A stretch of 64,000 nucleotides of DNA from Gammaproteobacteria bacterium (GCA_029882915.1 JAOUJZ010000004.1:20254-84253), one strand, 5' to 3'; numbered from the stretch's first letter, positions 50,986-58,310 are shown. Numbers and translations: made by a program. The notes: generated by a model from the letters alone, not told the origin.

Positions 50986-51447
50986 TCAACAGCCGCTGTT
51001 ATTTATTTTACCATCTGGCATAGTGGTATTGCAGTAGGTGATGCCGCGCTGGTGTGCACCATCAAGTTTAGCTCCTGTTAAATCAGCATTGCTAAAGTCA
51101 GTAAAAACAAGCTGTGCGCCTTTTAAATTAGCACCTTTCAAATTAGCACCATCAAAAATAGCATAATCGAGTAAGGCAATGGAGAGATCAGCACCTTCAA
51201 GGTTTGCGCCATGTAATTTGGAATGAGTGAACCAGACACCAACTAACTTAGCGTTACTGAAATTGACGCCTTTCAAGTTTGCTTCACTAATATCTACGCC
51301 ACTAAAATCCTGACCACTTAAATCAGCGTCACTTAAATTACAAAAGTTACATTGGCGTGATTCAAGTAAACGTTCAAGATAAATTTGATCAAAGGCTGAT
51401 ACAGCTGTTGCAGTGAGTAGACCAGCAAGTAAAGCGACTAATTTCAT
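50986..51447 (-). CDS. Secreted pentapeptide repeat protein
   Basis: Signal peptide and tandem A(D/N)LxG-type repeats (ANLKGVNFSNAKL..., GANLKGANLKGAQL). Confidence 0.9.
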   Translation of the reverse strand: MKLVALLAGLLTATAVSAFDQIYLERLLESRQCNFCNLSDADLSGQDFSGVDISEANLKGVNFSNAKLVGVWFTHSKLHGANLEGADLSIALLDYAIFDGANLKGANLKGAQLVFTDFSNADLTGAKLDGAHQRGITYCNTTMPDGKINNSGC

Positions 51448-52079: not shown

Positions 52080-52379
52080 TTATTTTTTACCGGGGAGTTG
52101 AATGGTAGGTTCTTTTGCAGGACGGTAAAAACCACCGATGTGACCAATCACCATAACAAGGTTTGAACTGGTTTTGTTTGCAATCTCATTCAGCATTTCA
52201 GTGCGTTCGGCCTTTTCCAGGCCACTGACCCGAACTTTAATTAATTCGTGGCGCTCAAGCGCAATTTCGATTTCAGAAAGTACGGTATCGGTTAGGCCTT
52301 TGCTGCCAATCATGACAATAGGTTTGAGAGAATGCGCTAAACCACGTAAGTAGCGCTTTTGTTTGTCATTAACTGCCAT
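52080..52379 (-). CDS. yhbY: YhbY/CRM domain RNA-binding protein
   Basis: KQKRYLRGLAHSLKPIVMIGSKGLTDTVLSEIEIALERHELIKVRV. Confidence 0.93.
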   Translation of the reverse strand: MAVNDKQKRYLRGLAHSLKPIVMIGSKGLTDTVLSEIEIALERHELIKVRVSGLEKAERTEMLNEIANKTSSNLVMVIGHIGGFYRPAKEPTIQLPGKK

Positions 52380-52476
52380 GTGTCTTGATACCATTGATTA
52401 AAATGGCTTAATTATATCAGGATAGGATAATCTACAGGGGAGATAGTAATGAAAGATGCACATGAGGTAAAAAATT

Positions 52477-52746
52477 ATGATTTCTGTTAAGCGTCTGGTT
52501 CTGGATATCCTTAAACCGCATCAGCCAAATGCGTTGGAATTTTCTTGCACTCTTGCAGGAGTTGATGATGATTATCGGGTCGAGTTGACGGTGATAGAGA
52601 TTGATGAGAATACCGAAACGGTTCAGGTTGTGATTGAAGGTGACAATATTAATTTCGAAGCGATTCAATCAGCCATCACCAATATGGGTGGTTCGCTTCA
52701 CAGTATTGATGTTGTGGAAGTACAAAGCGAGCCTGATAACTTATAA
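52477..52746 (+). CDS. DUF211 family protein
   Basis: RLVLDILKPHQP, VIEIDENTETVQVVIEGDNINFEAIQSAITNMGGSLHSIDVVEV. Confidence 0.85.
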   Translation: MISVKRLVLDILKPHQPNALEFSCTLAGVDDDYRVELTVIEIDENTETVQVVIEGDNINFEAIQSAITNMGGSLHSIDVVEVQSEPDNL

Positions 52747-52763
52747 GGTAAAGCTTTTAACGT

Positions 52764-53360
52764 ATGAACAAACTTTTATTGAATGCATTTGAGCAACTCC
52801 GGTTTCTATTACGAATTACTCGTACTCACGGTATTGTTCGCCGTTATTTTGTGGTGAATGGTTTCGATGGCGCGCTCACCATGCTGGGCCTCATCATAGG
52901 GTTTGTTATCAGTGCATCAGCTAATTTGACGGTAGTAATTAATGCCTGTTTAGGTGCCGCTATCGCGTTAGCAGTAAGTGGTGTGAGTAGTGCTTATGTT
53001 AGTGAGCAAGCAGAGTTGCGTCGTGCTCTTAATGATTTGGAAGATGCGATGATGACGGATCTCAAGGAAAGTGCGCATGGCGATGCCGCTCGCTGGGTTC
53101 CTTTATTAATTGCACTCGTCAACGGTATCGCACCATTAATTATTTCTCTATTAATCATTAGCCCACTATGGCTATCTAAATTAGGAATAGTCTTTTTTGT
53201 TTCGCCGCTTTTTATCGCGGTCATTATTGCCTTTATCCTTATTTTTTTACTGGGTGTATTTCTAGGTCGCGTGTCAGGAGTTTCGTGGCTGTATAGTGGC
53301 GTTAAAGCACTGTTAGTCGCACTGGTGACCATGTCACTGATTTTCTTATTTGCGGGGTAA
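52764..53360 (+). CDS. VIT1/CCC1-like (TIGR00267-type) membrane protein
   Basis: VVNGFDGALTMLGLIIGFVISAS, LGAAIALAVSGVSSAYVSEQAELRRALNDLEDAM, multiple TMs. Confidence 0.78.
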   Translation: MNKLLLNAFEQLRFLLRITRTHGIVRRYFVVNGFDGALTMLGLIIGFVISASANLTVVINACLGAAIALAVSGVSSAYVSEQAELRRALNDLEDAMMTDLKESAHGDAARWVPLLIALVNGIAPLIISLLIISPLWLSKLGIVFFVSPLFIAVIIAFILIFLLGVFLGRVSGVSWLYSGVKALLVALVTMSLIFLFAG

Positions 53361-53364
53361 TAGT

Positions 53365-56010
53365 GTGGCACACATTGACTGGCATACTGTTGAATCTGAT
53401 GACGTACTGAAACGGTTTAACAGTTCGGTTGATGGATTGACCACAAATCAGGTTCAACAAAACCGGATGGAACATGGTGCTAACGTTATTCCTGAAACAA
53501 AGAGACGATCTCTACTGAGAATGTTGCTGGATCAGTTTAGCGACTTCATGATCCTAGTATTGTTAGTGGCTGCAGTGATATCGGGCTTTATCGGAGAGCC
53601 TCAGGATACCATTGCCATATTAGTGATTATTGGTTTGAACGCCATTATCGGCATGGTTCAGGAATATAGAGCCGAACGTGCCGTTGCTGCACTGAGAAAA
53701 ATGGCAATTCCGGATGCCAAGGTAATACGTAACGCGACAGCAGTGACTATTGCAGCCTCTGAACTGGTACCTGGTGATATTGTTTTACTGGAAACGGGCA
53801 ATGTGGTGCCAGCGGACTTGAAGTTGCTGGAATCCGAGGAAATGCAGGCCGATGAATCATGTCTTACTGGCGAATCTCATGCTGTTGATAAGCGAAACAT
53901 CATTCTGACTGATACAGGTTTAGCCCTTGGAGATCGAGTTAATCTTGCATTTAATAGCAGTATGATTACACGGGGTCGCGGCAAGGGCATCGTGATCGCC
54001 ACAGGATTGAATACTGAAATCGGTCGTATTGCTGAATTACTCGGCAGCGAAAAGAGTGTGAAAACACCACTGCAGCAAAGATTGACTTTGTTTGGACGTT
54101 ATTTGGCGCTGGCAGTACTGGCAATCTGTGCCATCGTATTTGTTGCTGGTTTGCTGCAGGGGCAACCTGTATTACTGATGTTTTTGACGGCGATCAGTCT
54201 AGCAGTGGCGGCCATACCCGAAGCATTACCAGCAGTGGTGACAGTGTCACTTGCCTTTGGCGCACGTAAGCTCATTCAGAATAATGCTCTAGTGCGTAAT
54301 TTGCCAGCAGTGGAAACACTGGGATCAGTCACATACATCTGTGCTGATAAAACGGGGACTTTGACTCAAAATAGAATGACCGCAGAACTGTTTTATGTGA
54401 CCGGTCAACGTCAACAGCCACTAGATATTGATAGACATACTATGCCGATTGTAGAGTTTGGGCATGCACTGGCTTTAAATAATGACGTGTCAGAAATGGA
54501 TGGTACACCCAGCGGTGAACCGACTGAATTGGCATTATTTCAAGCGGCTTATCAGGCAGGTTATGACAAACATGTTCTGGAACAGCAATTACCACGTTTA
54601 GCGGTCATTCCTTTTGACAGTGACCGTAAGAAAATGACAACTCTGCATCAGTTGGCGGCAGGGGTCGTGGCCTATGTTAAAGGGGCGCCTGAACATGTGT
54701 TAACAGATTGTATTAATGCATTAGGCGTAGATGGCATCATAGAGATTGATGTTAAAGCAGTTACCACTGAAGCAGAACAATTAGCCAGAGAAGGGTATCG
54801 TGTGCTTGCAATAGCAAAACGGCAGTATGCCCAGATGCCTGACCAGATTGAGTCGGAAACGATTGAGCAACAACTCACCTTTCTTGGTCTGGTTGCTCTG
54901 ATTGACCCACCTCGACCGGAAGCCCAACAGGCCGTTGCTGATTGTCTGACTGCTGGCATTACACCCGTAATGATAACCGGTGATCATCCGGGTACGGCGA
55001 TGACCATCGCCAGACGTTTGGGGATAACCGATAGTGATGATGCCTTGTTGACTGGAGGCGAACTGGCAAAATTATCTGATGATGCATTTGCAAGCATTGT
55101 TGAAAAAATAAGGGTTTATGCTCGGGTCAGTCCACAACAAAAACTGAACATAGTAAAAGCATTGCAGTTAAATGGTGAATTTGTTGCCATGACGGGCGAT
55201 GGTGTTAACGATGCGCCTGCTCTGAAACGGGCCGGTATTGGTGTGGCTATGGGTAAAAAGGGCACTGATGTAGCGCGTGAAGCCGCAGACATGGTTTTAC
55301 TGGATGATAATTTCAATACAATTGTTCAAACGGTACGGTCAGGACGACAGATCTTCGATAATATTCGAAAATTTATTAAATATACGATGAGTTCCAATTC
55401 TGGAGAAATATGGACTCTCTTTCTGGCGCCATTTCTTGGCCTGCCCATTCCTTTGTTACCGATTCATATTTTATGGATCAATCTGGTGACTGATGGATTG
55501 CCCGGATTGGCTTATACTGCTGAACCTGCTGAGGAAGGAATTATGAATCGTCCGCCAAGGCCACCAGAAGAACATATATTTTCCCATGGTATGTGGCAGC
55601 ATATTTTATGGGTTGGGCTGTTTGTTGGTGGAATCTCTATCGCTTCACAAGCCTGGGCAATTTCACGAGGGGTCGACTATTGGCAAACTATTATTTTTAC
55701 CGTTTTGACCTTGTCACAGTTGTTTCATTCATTAGCAGTACGGAGTGAAACAACATCGTTGTTTTCACTGGGTTTGTTGAGTAATAAGCCCATGCTGGGT
55801 GCTGTCATCATGACCATTGGATTGCAGATGGCCGTTATTTACATCCCCGTATTTAATGACATCTTCCACACACAACCATTACCAATCTACGATCTGCTCA
55901 TTTGCTTTGCTGTGTCATCATTACTTCTGTTTGCGGTAGAGATTGAAAAGTATTTAGTGCGAAGAGGACTAATTTATGTGGACAGTAAACATTTAGTGCC
56001 TAATGAGTAA
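53365..56010 (+). CDS. Ca2+-type P-type ATPase (P2 family)
   Basis: ICADKTGTLTQNRM phosphorylation motif, CLTGESHAVDK, AMTGDGVNDAPALKRAGIGVAMG; GTG start after GGGG. Confidence 0.92.
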   Translation: MAHIDWHTVESDDVLKRFNSSVDGLTTNQVQQNRMEHGANVIPETKRRSLLRMLLDQFSDFMILVLLVAAVISGFIGEPQDTIAILVIIGLNAIIGMVQEYRAERAVAALRKMAIPDAKVIRNATAVTIAASELVPGDIVLLETGNVVPADLKLLESEEMQADESCLTGESHAVDKRNIILTDTGLALGDRVNLAFNSSMITRGRGKGIVIATGLNTEIGRIAELLGSEKSVKTPLQQRLTLFGRYLALAVLAICAIVFVAGLLQGQPVLLMFLTAISLAVAAIPEALPAVVTVSLAFGARKLIQNNALVRNLPAVETLGSVTYICADKTGTLTQNRMTAELFYVTGQRQQPLDIDRHTMPIVEFGHALALNNDVSEMDGTPSGEPTELALFQAAYQAGYDKHVLEQQLPRLAVIPFDSDRKKMTTLHQLAAGVVAYVKGAPEHVLTDCINALGVDGIIEIDVKAVTTEAEQLAREGYRVLAIAKRQYAQMPDQIESETIEQQLTFLGLVALIDPPRPEAQQAVADCLTAGITPVMITGDHPGTAMTIARRLGITDSDDALLTGGELAKLSDDAFASIVEKIRVYARVSPQQKLNIVKALQLNGEFVAMTGDGVNDAPALKRAGIGVAMGKKGTDVAREAADMVLLDDNFNTIVQTVRSGRQIFDNIRKFIKYTMSSNSGEIWTLFLAPFLGLPIPLLPIHILWINLVTDGLPGLAYTAEPAEEGIMNRPPRPPEEHIFSHGMWQHILWVGLFVGGISIASQAWAISRGVDYWQTIIFTVLTLSQLFHSLAVRSETTSLFSLGLLSNKPMLGAVIMTIGLQMAVIYIPVFNDIFHTQPLPIYDLLICFAVSSLLLFAVEIEKYLVRRGLIYVDSKHLVPNE

Positions 56011-56111
56011 CAGTAAAAGTCACTAGGCTAATATAAAGTTCTATATAATTAAGCACGGGCGTAATTAAGCTCACCACACCCTCGCTACTTTTCTAAATGT
56101 GTACTCGAACC

Positions 56112-58310
56112 ATGACTAAACATAAGTTTACCGTAACAGCTGCTCGTGGCATGCTGCCTTTATTGGCGAAAGAACTCGCTGGAATGGGCATTAAAGAGCT
56201 CAAGCAAGAGCAAGGTAACATCCGATTTACAGGTGGTTTAGAAGAGGCTTACCGCGTTTGTTTGTGGTCACGAATTGCTATTCGGGTGCTGATGCCCATT
56301 GCCCATTTTTCCGCAACTACAACCGATGAGCTGTATCAAGGTATTCATGATTTACCATGGGAAGATCATGTTGATGCTGAAGGCAGTACTATCGCCGTTG
56401 ATTTTAATAGTTTTCGCTCTAAAATTCACCATAGCCAATACGGTGCTCAACGAGTAAAAGACGGGATTGTAGATCGGTTTCGTGAGCAGACAGGGGAGCG
56501 ACCTTCTGTTGATCTGCATCAGCCTGACTTAAGAATCAATGTCTATCTGAAACATAACCAAGCTATCGTGAGCATTGATCTGTCGGGCGAGAGTCTGCAT
56601 AAACGCGGCTATCGTGTGCAAACAACCCCAGCACCTTTAAAAGAACATCTTGCGGCCGCTATTTTGATGACGGCAGAATGGCCGAGACTGGCCAAACAAG
56701 GTTGGGGTCTGATTGATCCGATGTGTGGATCAGGAACCTTTCTAATTGAAGCGGCGATGATAGCTGCTGATATTGCACCTGGGATTTTGAGAGACTATTT
56801 CGGTTTTCTATACTGGAAACAACATGACAAAGAAGCATGGCAGCGTTTAAAAGCCGATGCAGAACGTCGTCGCCACAGTGGTTTGGCACGATTACCCGTT
56901 ATTTCAGGTGGCGATGCTGATGTTAAATCGGTACAGGCAGCCAAAGCCAATATTGCTGAAATTGGTCTTTCAGAATGGATTCAGGTTGAACAACGTGATT
57001 TATTAGATTGGCCATCACAAGCCAAAGTATTACCGACCAGCGGCATGATGGTCTGCAACCCACCCTATGGTGAACGGATGGGGAATCTGGAAGAGTTGCA
57101 CCACCTTTATGAAAGTCTGGGTAATATTATCAGTGAATCATTTCCAGCGTGGCGAACCACATTGATTACTGACAATGAAAGTCTGGGTAAATTTACAGGG
57201 TTAACCTTATTTGACAGTGTGCCATTTGATAACGGTCCGATAGCCTGCAAGGTATTGTGTTACCGGGCACCACGACCAGTATCAGACAGAACAGAGCGCG
57301 TGGACCAATCAGTACAACAGTCCGAAATTATGCCTCAACACCAAAATGCTCAGCCAGTGATACTTTCAGAACATGCAGAAATGTTTGCCAACCGATTGAA
57401 AAAGAACCTCAAGCATCTTGGTAAATGGGCCAGAAAAAATAACATTGAATGTTATCGACTATACGATGCAGATTTGCCTGATTACGCTGTGGCTATCGAT
57501 CTTTATGGCGATTATGTTCATGTGCAGGAATATGCACCACCAAAATCGATTGATCCAGAAAAAGCAGTGCAACGATTAAATGATGTGATGCAGGTGATTC
57601 CACAGGTTTTAGAGCTGCCAGTTTCACATATCGCCCTTAAACTACGCCAAAAACAACGTGGAACACAGCAATACGAAGCACAAGGATCACAGAAACAGCG
57701 AATCACTATTACTGAATCAGATCTGAAATTTTGGGTTAATTTAACGGATTATCTAGATACGGGCTTGTTTCTGGATCATAGACTAACTCGTCAGATGATT
57801 ACTGAACAATCAGCAGGTAAAGACTTCCTTAATTTATTTGCTTATACAGGTTCGGCCACGGTTTATGCTGCTGCAGGTCAGGCAAAATCGACCACGACAG
57901 TAGACATGTCCAATACCTATCTGCAGTGGGCGCAAGATAATATGGTCTTAAATGGCTTTACGGGCAAACAACACCAGTATATTCGGGCAAATTGTTTGGA
58001 ATGGTTGCAGGCAGCACATCAGGAACCCCAGCGCTATGGCTTGATCTTTCTTGATCCTCCTACATTCTCCAATTCAAGCAGGATGGAAGGAGTATTTGAT
58101 ATACAACGCGACCATGTTGCCTTGATTAATATGTCTGTCGATCTACTTTCAGATGAAGGTATATTGCTATTCTCAACCAATCGGCGAGACTTTAAGATAG
58201 ATATTGATACGCTATCAAATCTCACTATTAATGATATCAGCAATATTACCTTACCCAAAGACTTTGAGAGAAACCCAAAAATCCATTATTGTTGGGCAAT
58301 TAGCAAATAA
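56112..58310 (+). CDS. rlmL: Bifunctional 23S rRNA methyltransferase RlmK/RlmL
   Basis: THUMP region, DPMCGSGTFLIEAAMIAADIAPG, NPPYGERMG, FLNLFAYTGSATVYAA, LDPPTFSNSSRM. Confidence 0.95.
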   Translation: MTKHKFTVTAARGMLPLLAKELAGMGIKELKQEQGNIRFTGGLEEAYRVCLWSRIAIRVLMPIAHFSATTTDELYQGIHDLPWEDHVDAEGSTIAVDFNSFRSKIHHSQYGAQRVKDGIVDRFREQTGERPSVDLHQPDLRINVYLKHNQAIVSIDLSGESLHKRGYRVQTTPAPLKEHLAAAILMTAEWPRLAKQGWGLIDPMCGSGTFLIEAAMIAADIAPGILRDYFGFLYWKQHDKEAWQRLKADAERRRHSGLARLPVISGGDADVKSVQAAKANIAEIGLSEWIQVEQRDLLDWPSQAKVLPTSGMMVCNPPYGERMGNLEELHHLYESLGNIISESFPAWRTTLITDNESLGKFTGLTLFDSVPFDNGPIACKVLCYRAPRPVSDRTERVDQSVQQSEIMPQHQNAQPVILSEHAEMFANRLKKNLKHLGKWARKNNIECYRLYDADLPDYAVAIDLYGDYVHVQEYAPPKSIDPEKAVQRLNDVMQVIPQVLELPVSHIALKLRQKQRGTQQYEAQGSQKQRITITESDLKFWVNLTDYLDTGLFLDHRLTRQMITEQSAGKDFLNLFAYTGSATVYAAAGQAKSTTTVDMSNTYLQWAQDNMVLNGFTGKQHQYIRANCLEWLQAAHQEPQRYGLIFLDPPTFSNSSRMEGVFDIQRDHVALINMSVDLLSDEGILLFSTNRRDFKIDIDTLSNLTINDISNITLPKDFERNPKIHYCWAISK

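Follow-up and report, generated by a model that had tools for sequence, protein, structure and literature searches.

DUF211 genes co-occur with short VIT-family transporters: a gammaproteobacterial cassette as a candidate divalent-cation export module

VIT homologues are Fe2+/H+ antiporters, and the cytosolic H1-H3 domain of EgVIT1 binds metal and has Glu and Met residues that are required for function (PMC10794610). Several of the corresponding Glu residues are replaceable in PfVIT (PMC8247066). The plant VTLs, such as MtVTL8, are VIT-family proteins that lack both the metal-binding domain and Glu72 (PMC10794610). DUF211 is a small protein of most archaea and has no assigned function. Its cluster arCOG04140 is listed as a top-priority uncharacterized archaeal protein, with a solved structure and no clue from genomic context (PMC6393860). 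The archaeal member 3BPD is a toroidal homoheptamer (PMC9953691), and one archaeal COG1888 cluster has been linked to ArsR regulators (PMC9425974). An open-access literature search returned no paper linking DUF211 to VIT proteins. The cassette described here is an instance of a widespread and apparently undescribed two-gene module. Because DUF211 is tied almost exclusively to one defined subclass of transporters, its function can be tested directly, using two genes and a single assay of metal sensitivity or transport.

The cassette lies in a 64,000-nucleotide stretch (the window) from a gammaproteobacterial draft genome of 1.9 Mb and 90% completeness. Three plus-strand genes at 52477-56010 encode a DUF211 protein, a VIT1/CCC1-like transporter, and a P2-type Ca2+-ATPase, separated by gaps of 17 and 4 nt (Table 1). 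An earlier sequence-only reading had reported these coordinates, strand, and gaps, and had called the same three families; the ORFs are confirmed, the DUF211 motifs that it quoted are found in the sequence, and all three products exceed their Pfam cut-offs. It had named the DUF211 assignment as refutable by profile search, and the protein scores 94.2 bits against PF02680 (cut-off 22.1). The VIT-like protein is marginally over the cut-off of PF01988 (VIT1; 30.0 versus 28.1 bits). Its best sub-family is TIGR00267, an archaeal VIT-like family, matched over the full length at 72.5 bits, which is under the curated cut-off of 156.95; judged by these scores, it is related to the curated family, yet no member of it. 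For the ATPase, the Cation_ATPase_N/C, E1-E2_ATPase, and Hydrolase profiles all score far above cut-off. In a promoter and terminator scan, promoter-like sites were no commoner than in shuffled sequences and none lay immediately 5' of DUF211. An upstream Mn-responsive riboswitch was considered and discarded, as the window and 38 related loci gave no such Rfam match and two tRNAs alone were detected.

Table 1. Features of the cassette and its borders (window coordinates).
Feature	Coordinates	Strand	Basis
DUF211 (PF02680 / COG1888 / arCOG04140) protein, 89 aa, ferredoxin-like fold	52477..52746	+	profile, structure matches, model
putative ribosome-binding site (gaggt) of DUF211	52464..52468	+	sequence reading; inference
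short transporter of the VIT1/CCC1 family with five membrane helices, 198 aa, without H1-H3 metal-binding domain	52764..53360	+	profiles, model, fold match, residues
P2-type (LMCA1/PMR1/SERCA-like) Ca2+-ATPase, 881 aa, GTG start	53365..56010	+	profiles, alignment, motifs
yhbY, left border of insertion, outside module	52080..52394	-	profile; comparison with relatives
presumed rlmKL-like methyltransferase, right border, outside module	56097..58310	+	ORF call; comparison with relatives

The AlphaFold2 model of the window VIT (pLDDT 86.5) has an N-terminal helix and five transmembrane (TM) helices; TM2 is long (residues 55-96) and is joined to TM3 by a loop of 7 residues. EgVIT1 is the best fold match (6iu3/6iu4; probability 1.00, TM 0.65, E 1.3e-3) and the next match is far weaker; by sequence, the short VITs had no match among PDB chains. 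Window VIT and EgVIT1 (6IU3) share the fold, the five TM helices, membership in Pfam VIT1, and the TM1 aspartate. This residue, equivalent to Asp43 (D35 in the window), is kept in 15/15 aligned short VITs and conserved in 100% of 85 sequences. EgVIT1 residue numbers in the alignment were anchored at Asp43 and verified with Asp36, Glu72, Met80, and Glu102. The two proteins differ in the cytosolic metal-binding domain, Glu72, and Met80, which the window VIT lacks. Judged from the alignment and from the window model, the short VITs have no counterpart to about 44 residues of EgVIT1 H1-H3, and 15/15 are without Glu72 and Met80, whose positions are occupied by A65 and G73 in the window. Equivalents of Glu102, Glu105, Met149, and Met150 are also missing from the window protein; among the Glu columns 102, 105, 113, 116, and 153 of the metal-binding domain, only Glu113 and Glu153 align with acids (E93 and E102). 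The short VITs have their own conserved acidic residues on the TM2 extension, namely E81 (100%), E84 (92%), and E93 (89%), given in window numbering after a conversion of +4. Absence of the metal-binding domain does not by itself call for a partner, because plant VTLs also lack it and no DUF211 partner has been described for them.

The window DUF211 model (pLDDT 95.2) adopts a beta-alpha-beta-beta-alpha-beta ferredoxin-like fold and superimposes on 3bpd (TM 0.88, E 3e-9). Further matches within the family are 2raq and 2x3d, and the nearest folds beyond it include the Ni-binding domain of NikR. Residues D10, D43, S76, and D78 are invariant in 152/152 sequences, and K13 (96%), H75 (95%), E41 (92%), H15 (88%), and E47 (86%) are conserved in the same set. 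Judging from the topology, D10/K13/H15 at the end of strand 1 and H75/S76/D78 at the start of strand 4 would lie at one edge of the ferredoxin sheet. By profile, sequence, fold, and invariant residues, the window protein belongs to the same family as archaeal DUF211 (3BPD, 2RAQ, 2X3D). It differs in context, its gene being part of a putative transporter operon, whereas many euryarchaeal genes occur in housekeeping contexts. The heptameric ring of 3BPD is a feature of an archaeal member, and the window DUF211 is known as a single-chain model.

The window ATPase carries the phosphorylation motif DKTGTLT and has full-length homology to human SPCA1/yeast PMR1, SERCA, and Listeria LMCA1, its closest solved relative. 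It scores 702.9 bits against the PMR1-type model TIGR01522, under the curated cut-off of 798.3, and is likewise under the curated cut-off of the SERCA model. Alignment to LMCA1 places ligand motifs IPEALP in M4, SSNSGE in M5, and NLVTDGLP in M6. The Ca2+ ligands are kept in M4 (E), M5 (N, E), and M6 (N, T, D), at positions that we presume from the SERCA sites. It differs from LMCA1 in M5, with Glu (SSNSGE) in place of Ala, and in M8, with Gln in place of Arg. These motifs point to Ca2+ or Mn2+ without settling the choice of ion. A second P2-type Ca2+-ATPase gene of the window genome lies outside the cassette (G000:C11:7638-10280).

For the wider survey, 369 gammaproteobacterial genomes were searched for DUF211 and TIGR00267. 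Full-length TIGR00267 matches were taken as short VITs, and matches broken in halves as canonical VITs with a cytosolic insert. DUF211 is present in 40/369 genomes, and a short VIT was counted in 39, of which 38 also have DUF211. Thus 38/40 DUF211 genomes encode a short VIT versus 1/329 others (38 both, 2 DUF211 only, 1 VIT only, 328 without either gene; Fisher p 3e-48, which ignores shared ancestry and, like the other p values here, is to be taken as an effect size). The count excludes a partial match in G278 (63% complete; 47.6 bits, positions 86-170) and includes G267, where a weak match (29.6 bits) lies 22 nt from DUF211. The exceptions are G215 and G286, which are cut by contig ends, and G273, which has a decayed DUF211 and a canonical VIT only. 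In this last genome, the DUF211 remnant (L155, 6768-7073, minus strand) is intact in its N-terminal half alone; its decay fits loss of DUF211 after the short VIT had gone. A hand compilation of the 17 gammaproteobacterial families with both DUF211-positive and DUF211-negative members shows the short VIT tracking DUF211 in 17/17.

The same association is seen in other lineages. Among 131 Thermoproteota genomes, DUF211 occurs in 67, a full-length TIGR00267-type match in 65, and both in 60, so that 60/67 DUF211 genomes have a short VIT versus 5/64 others (7 DUF211 only, 5 VIT only, 59 neither; Fisher p 4e-23, shared ancestry ignored). Some of these VIT matches are weak (20-40 bits), partly reaching the Pfam VIT1 model, and were accepted on position and length. 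DUF211 is found in 2/131 Chloroflexota genomes with a short VIT adjoining in both, and no further genome of the 131 has a TIGR00267 match that covers 150 of the model's 171 positions. The pair also occurs in haloarchaea, Bathyarchaeia, and Methanocella, and by profile Haloferax volcanii encodes both families. Among 49 genomes reached via other DUF211 loci, mostly archaeal, 44 contain a TIGR00267-type match, often unlinked. DUF211 is therefore encoded almost only in genomes with a short VIT, usually as a neighboring gene.

A VIT-like gene directly adjoins DUF211 in 36/39 gammaproteobacterial loci besides the window (35 by profile, plus L118), and chance is no explanation for the cassette because of this. 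The three non-adjacent loci are L127, at a contig end, L155 with its decayed gene, and that of G323, where DUF211 (near two tRNA genes) and the short VIT are about 434 kb apart (L145/L207). Five Pseudomonadota genomes outside Gammaproteobacteria have the pair adjacent too, and haloarchaeal plasmids show DUF211 followed by VIT1/CCC1 in 6/6 regions read. The 60 Thermoproteota with both genes comprise 39 adjacent and 21 unlinked cases; in the adjacent pairs, VIT is downstream in 25, upstream in 13, and convergent in 1. Matches there are separated by gaps of 14 nt, and at one locus (L176, 1956-2740, plus strand) DUF211 overlaps a 164-aa VIT-like gene by 4 nt. As Pfam barely recognizes the latter (15 bits), the VIT family reaches past current models. 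No DUF211-VIT gene fusion was found in the surveyed loci; apparent fusions in L136 and L141 proved to be artefacts of stop-to-stop ORFs, the genes being adjacent in different frames. Co-inheritance of an old operon is insufficient to account for the pattern, because gene order changes and the genes separate, yet they remain paired at the level of the genome.

The ATPase is less constant. A P2 ATPase lies within 2.6 kb of DUF211 in 14/39 gammaproteobacterial loci and in the window (15/40), against an expected chance rate of about 0.6% per locus at about 2 such genes per genome. It is mostly downstream, twice upstream, and once on the opposite strand. Upstream ATPases score 590-642 bits, far below the downstream ones (mostly 1100-1411), and the two therefore belong to different subfamilies. 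In haloarchaea, a P2 ATPase occurs at 3/8 loci, in other positions and orientations. By hand count, P2 ATPases are present in 36/40 DUF211 genomes versus 161/329 others (p 3e-7, shared ancestry ignored).

These surveys bear on several proposals of the sequence-only reading. Whether the genes co-occur elsewhere had been named beforehand as a point of refutation, and the gene-neighborhood survey does find DUF211, VIT, and ATPase genes together in other genomes. The strong co-occurrence and repeated adjacency also lend support to its putative operon and to its view of DUF211 as a partner protein in the homeostasis of divalent cations. The three-gene unit is upheld in part: DUF211 and the short VIT form the core, and the ATPase, which had been counted as a third member, is a frequent but optional gene.

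The coupling of DUF211 to the short VIT is well supported, and from the gene data DUF211 is probably a dedicated partner of this transporter. On balance, we favor the cassette as a divalent-cation export module with DUF211 and the short VIT as its core and the ATPase as an addition. The core would be a two-protein unit that joins a minimal VIT, without a built-in cytosolic metal-binding domain, to soluble DUF211. DUF211 would most likely bind divalent metal via its conserved Asp, Glu, and His residues and, by contacting the transporter on its cytosolic side, would replace in trans the domain of plant VIT1 that is missing here. It would capture or sense cytosolic metal and then feed or gate the VIT pore. 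The P2 ATPase would additionally use ATP to export the same ion or one that competes with it, with Ca2+ or Mn2+ likeliest and Fe2+ possible. If true, this would reveal how VITs that have no metal-binding domain receive their metal or are regulated. A more specific form, in which DUF211 is a trans-acting, ring-forming, metal-sensing subunit of ancient minimal VITs that are archaeal and were passed to several bacterial lineages, is held tentatively and falls somewhat short of probable. It would give a role to arCOG04140, among the most widespread archaeal genes without an assigned function, with a separate protein supplying the metal binding that plants carry within the same chain.

Other readings account for parts of the evidence. 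The pair could handle Fe2+ under oxidative stress instead of Ca2+ or Mn2+, a variant that is compatible with the other parts of the export model and that we regard as rather unlikely. VIT homologues are Fe2+/H+ antiporters, as noted above, and the COG1814 gene SSO2568 of S. solfataricus is up 7.9-fold with H2O2, alongside Dps-like, peroxiredoxin, and Fur genes (PMC2739297). However, SSO2568 was identified as a COG1814 member and not as a DUF211-linked gene, Ca2+-type P2 ATPases are repeatedly associated with the pair, and Glu72 and Met80 of EgVIT1 are not conserved in short VITs. Somewhat less likely still is a general sensor of divalent metals or ligands, in which DUF211 serves several clients including the short VIT and acts without forming a complex, for instance through an effect on expression or as a diffusible metal buffer. 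Archaeoglobus, Methanothrix, methanobacteria, and others have DUF211 beside other genes, many of them housekeeping, without an adjoining VIT, and Thermotoga maritima and 7 Thermoproteota encode DUF211 with no detected short VIT. The likeness to the NikR sensor domain and the ArsR link of one COG1888 cluster point the same way. An 89-aa protein without a DNA-binding domain fits this poorly, and gammaproteobacterial DUF211 is almost never found without a short VIT, the one such genome with a canonical VIT only having a decayed copy. DUF211 may nonetheless serve further clients beyond the short VIT.

That the three are independent transporter or stress genes sharing a mobile metal/stress island, with no functional dependence, is already disfavored and seems very improbable. 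Three close relatives do have an intact border and no cassette, and haloarchaeal copies reside on plasmids, where the pairs of L031, L032, and L034 adjoin universal stress protein genes. Hitch-hiking predicts neither the persistence of co-occurrence when the genes are unlinked nor the repeated rearrangement of gene order, and the export module with its DUF211-short VIT core is preferred.

yhbY and the gene that we take to be rlmKL are direct neighbors in the three relatives (two congeneric, the third from the same family), with about 35 to 45 nt between their aligned ends. The cassette was therefore either gained as a block or lost in these relatives. It closely matches the neighboring genes in GC and GC3, so there is no compositional sign of recent foreign origin. 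In the VIT tree, 42 Pseudomonadota rows, including the window, form one clade (support 100), as do 44 Pseudomonadota rows in the DUF211 tree (support 97), and the window copy is nearest to other Proteobacteria (72-80% identity). Acquisition from archaea, as the sequence-only reading had suggested, is thus rejected as a recent event for the window; an old archaeal origin of the cassette genes is possible. In G267, a draft genome, a divergent DUF211 and a 175-aa short VIT (L118, 6661-7695, minus strand) are Sulfolobales-like and fall outside the Pseudomonadota clade, which may reflect a second transfer, misbinning, or contamination. Viral carriage of the cassette was not found in IMG/VR. To the left of yhbY, a pentapeptide-repeat protein gene (window 50986-51447, minus strand) adjoins a nitroreductase gene and varies among sister genomes.
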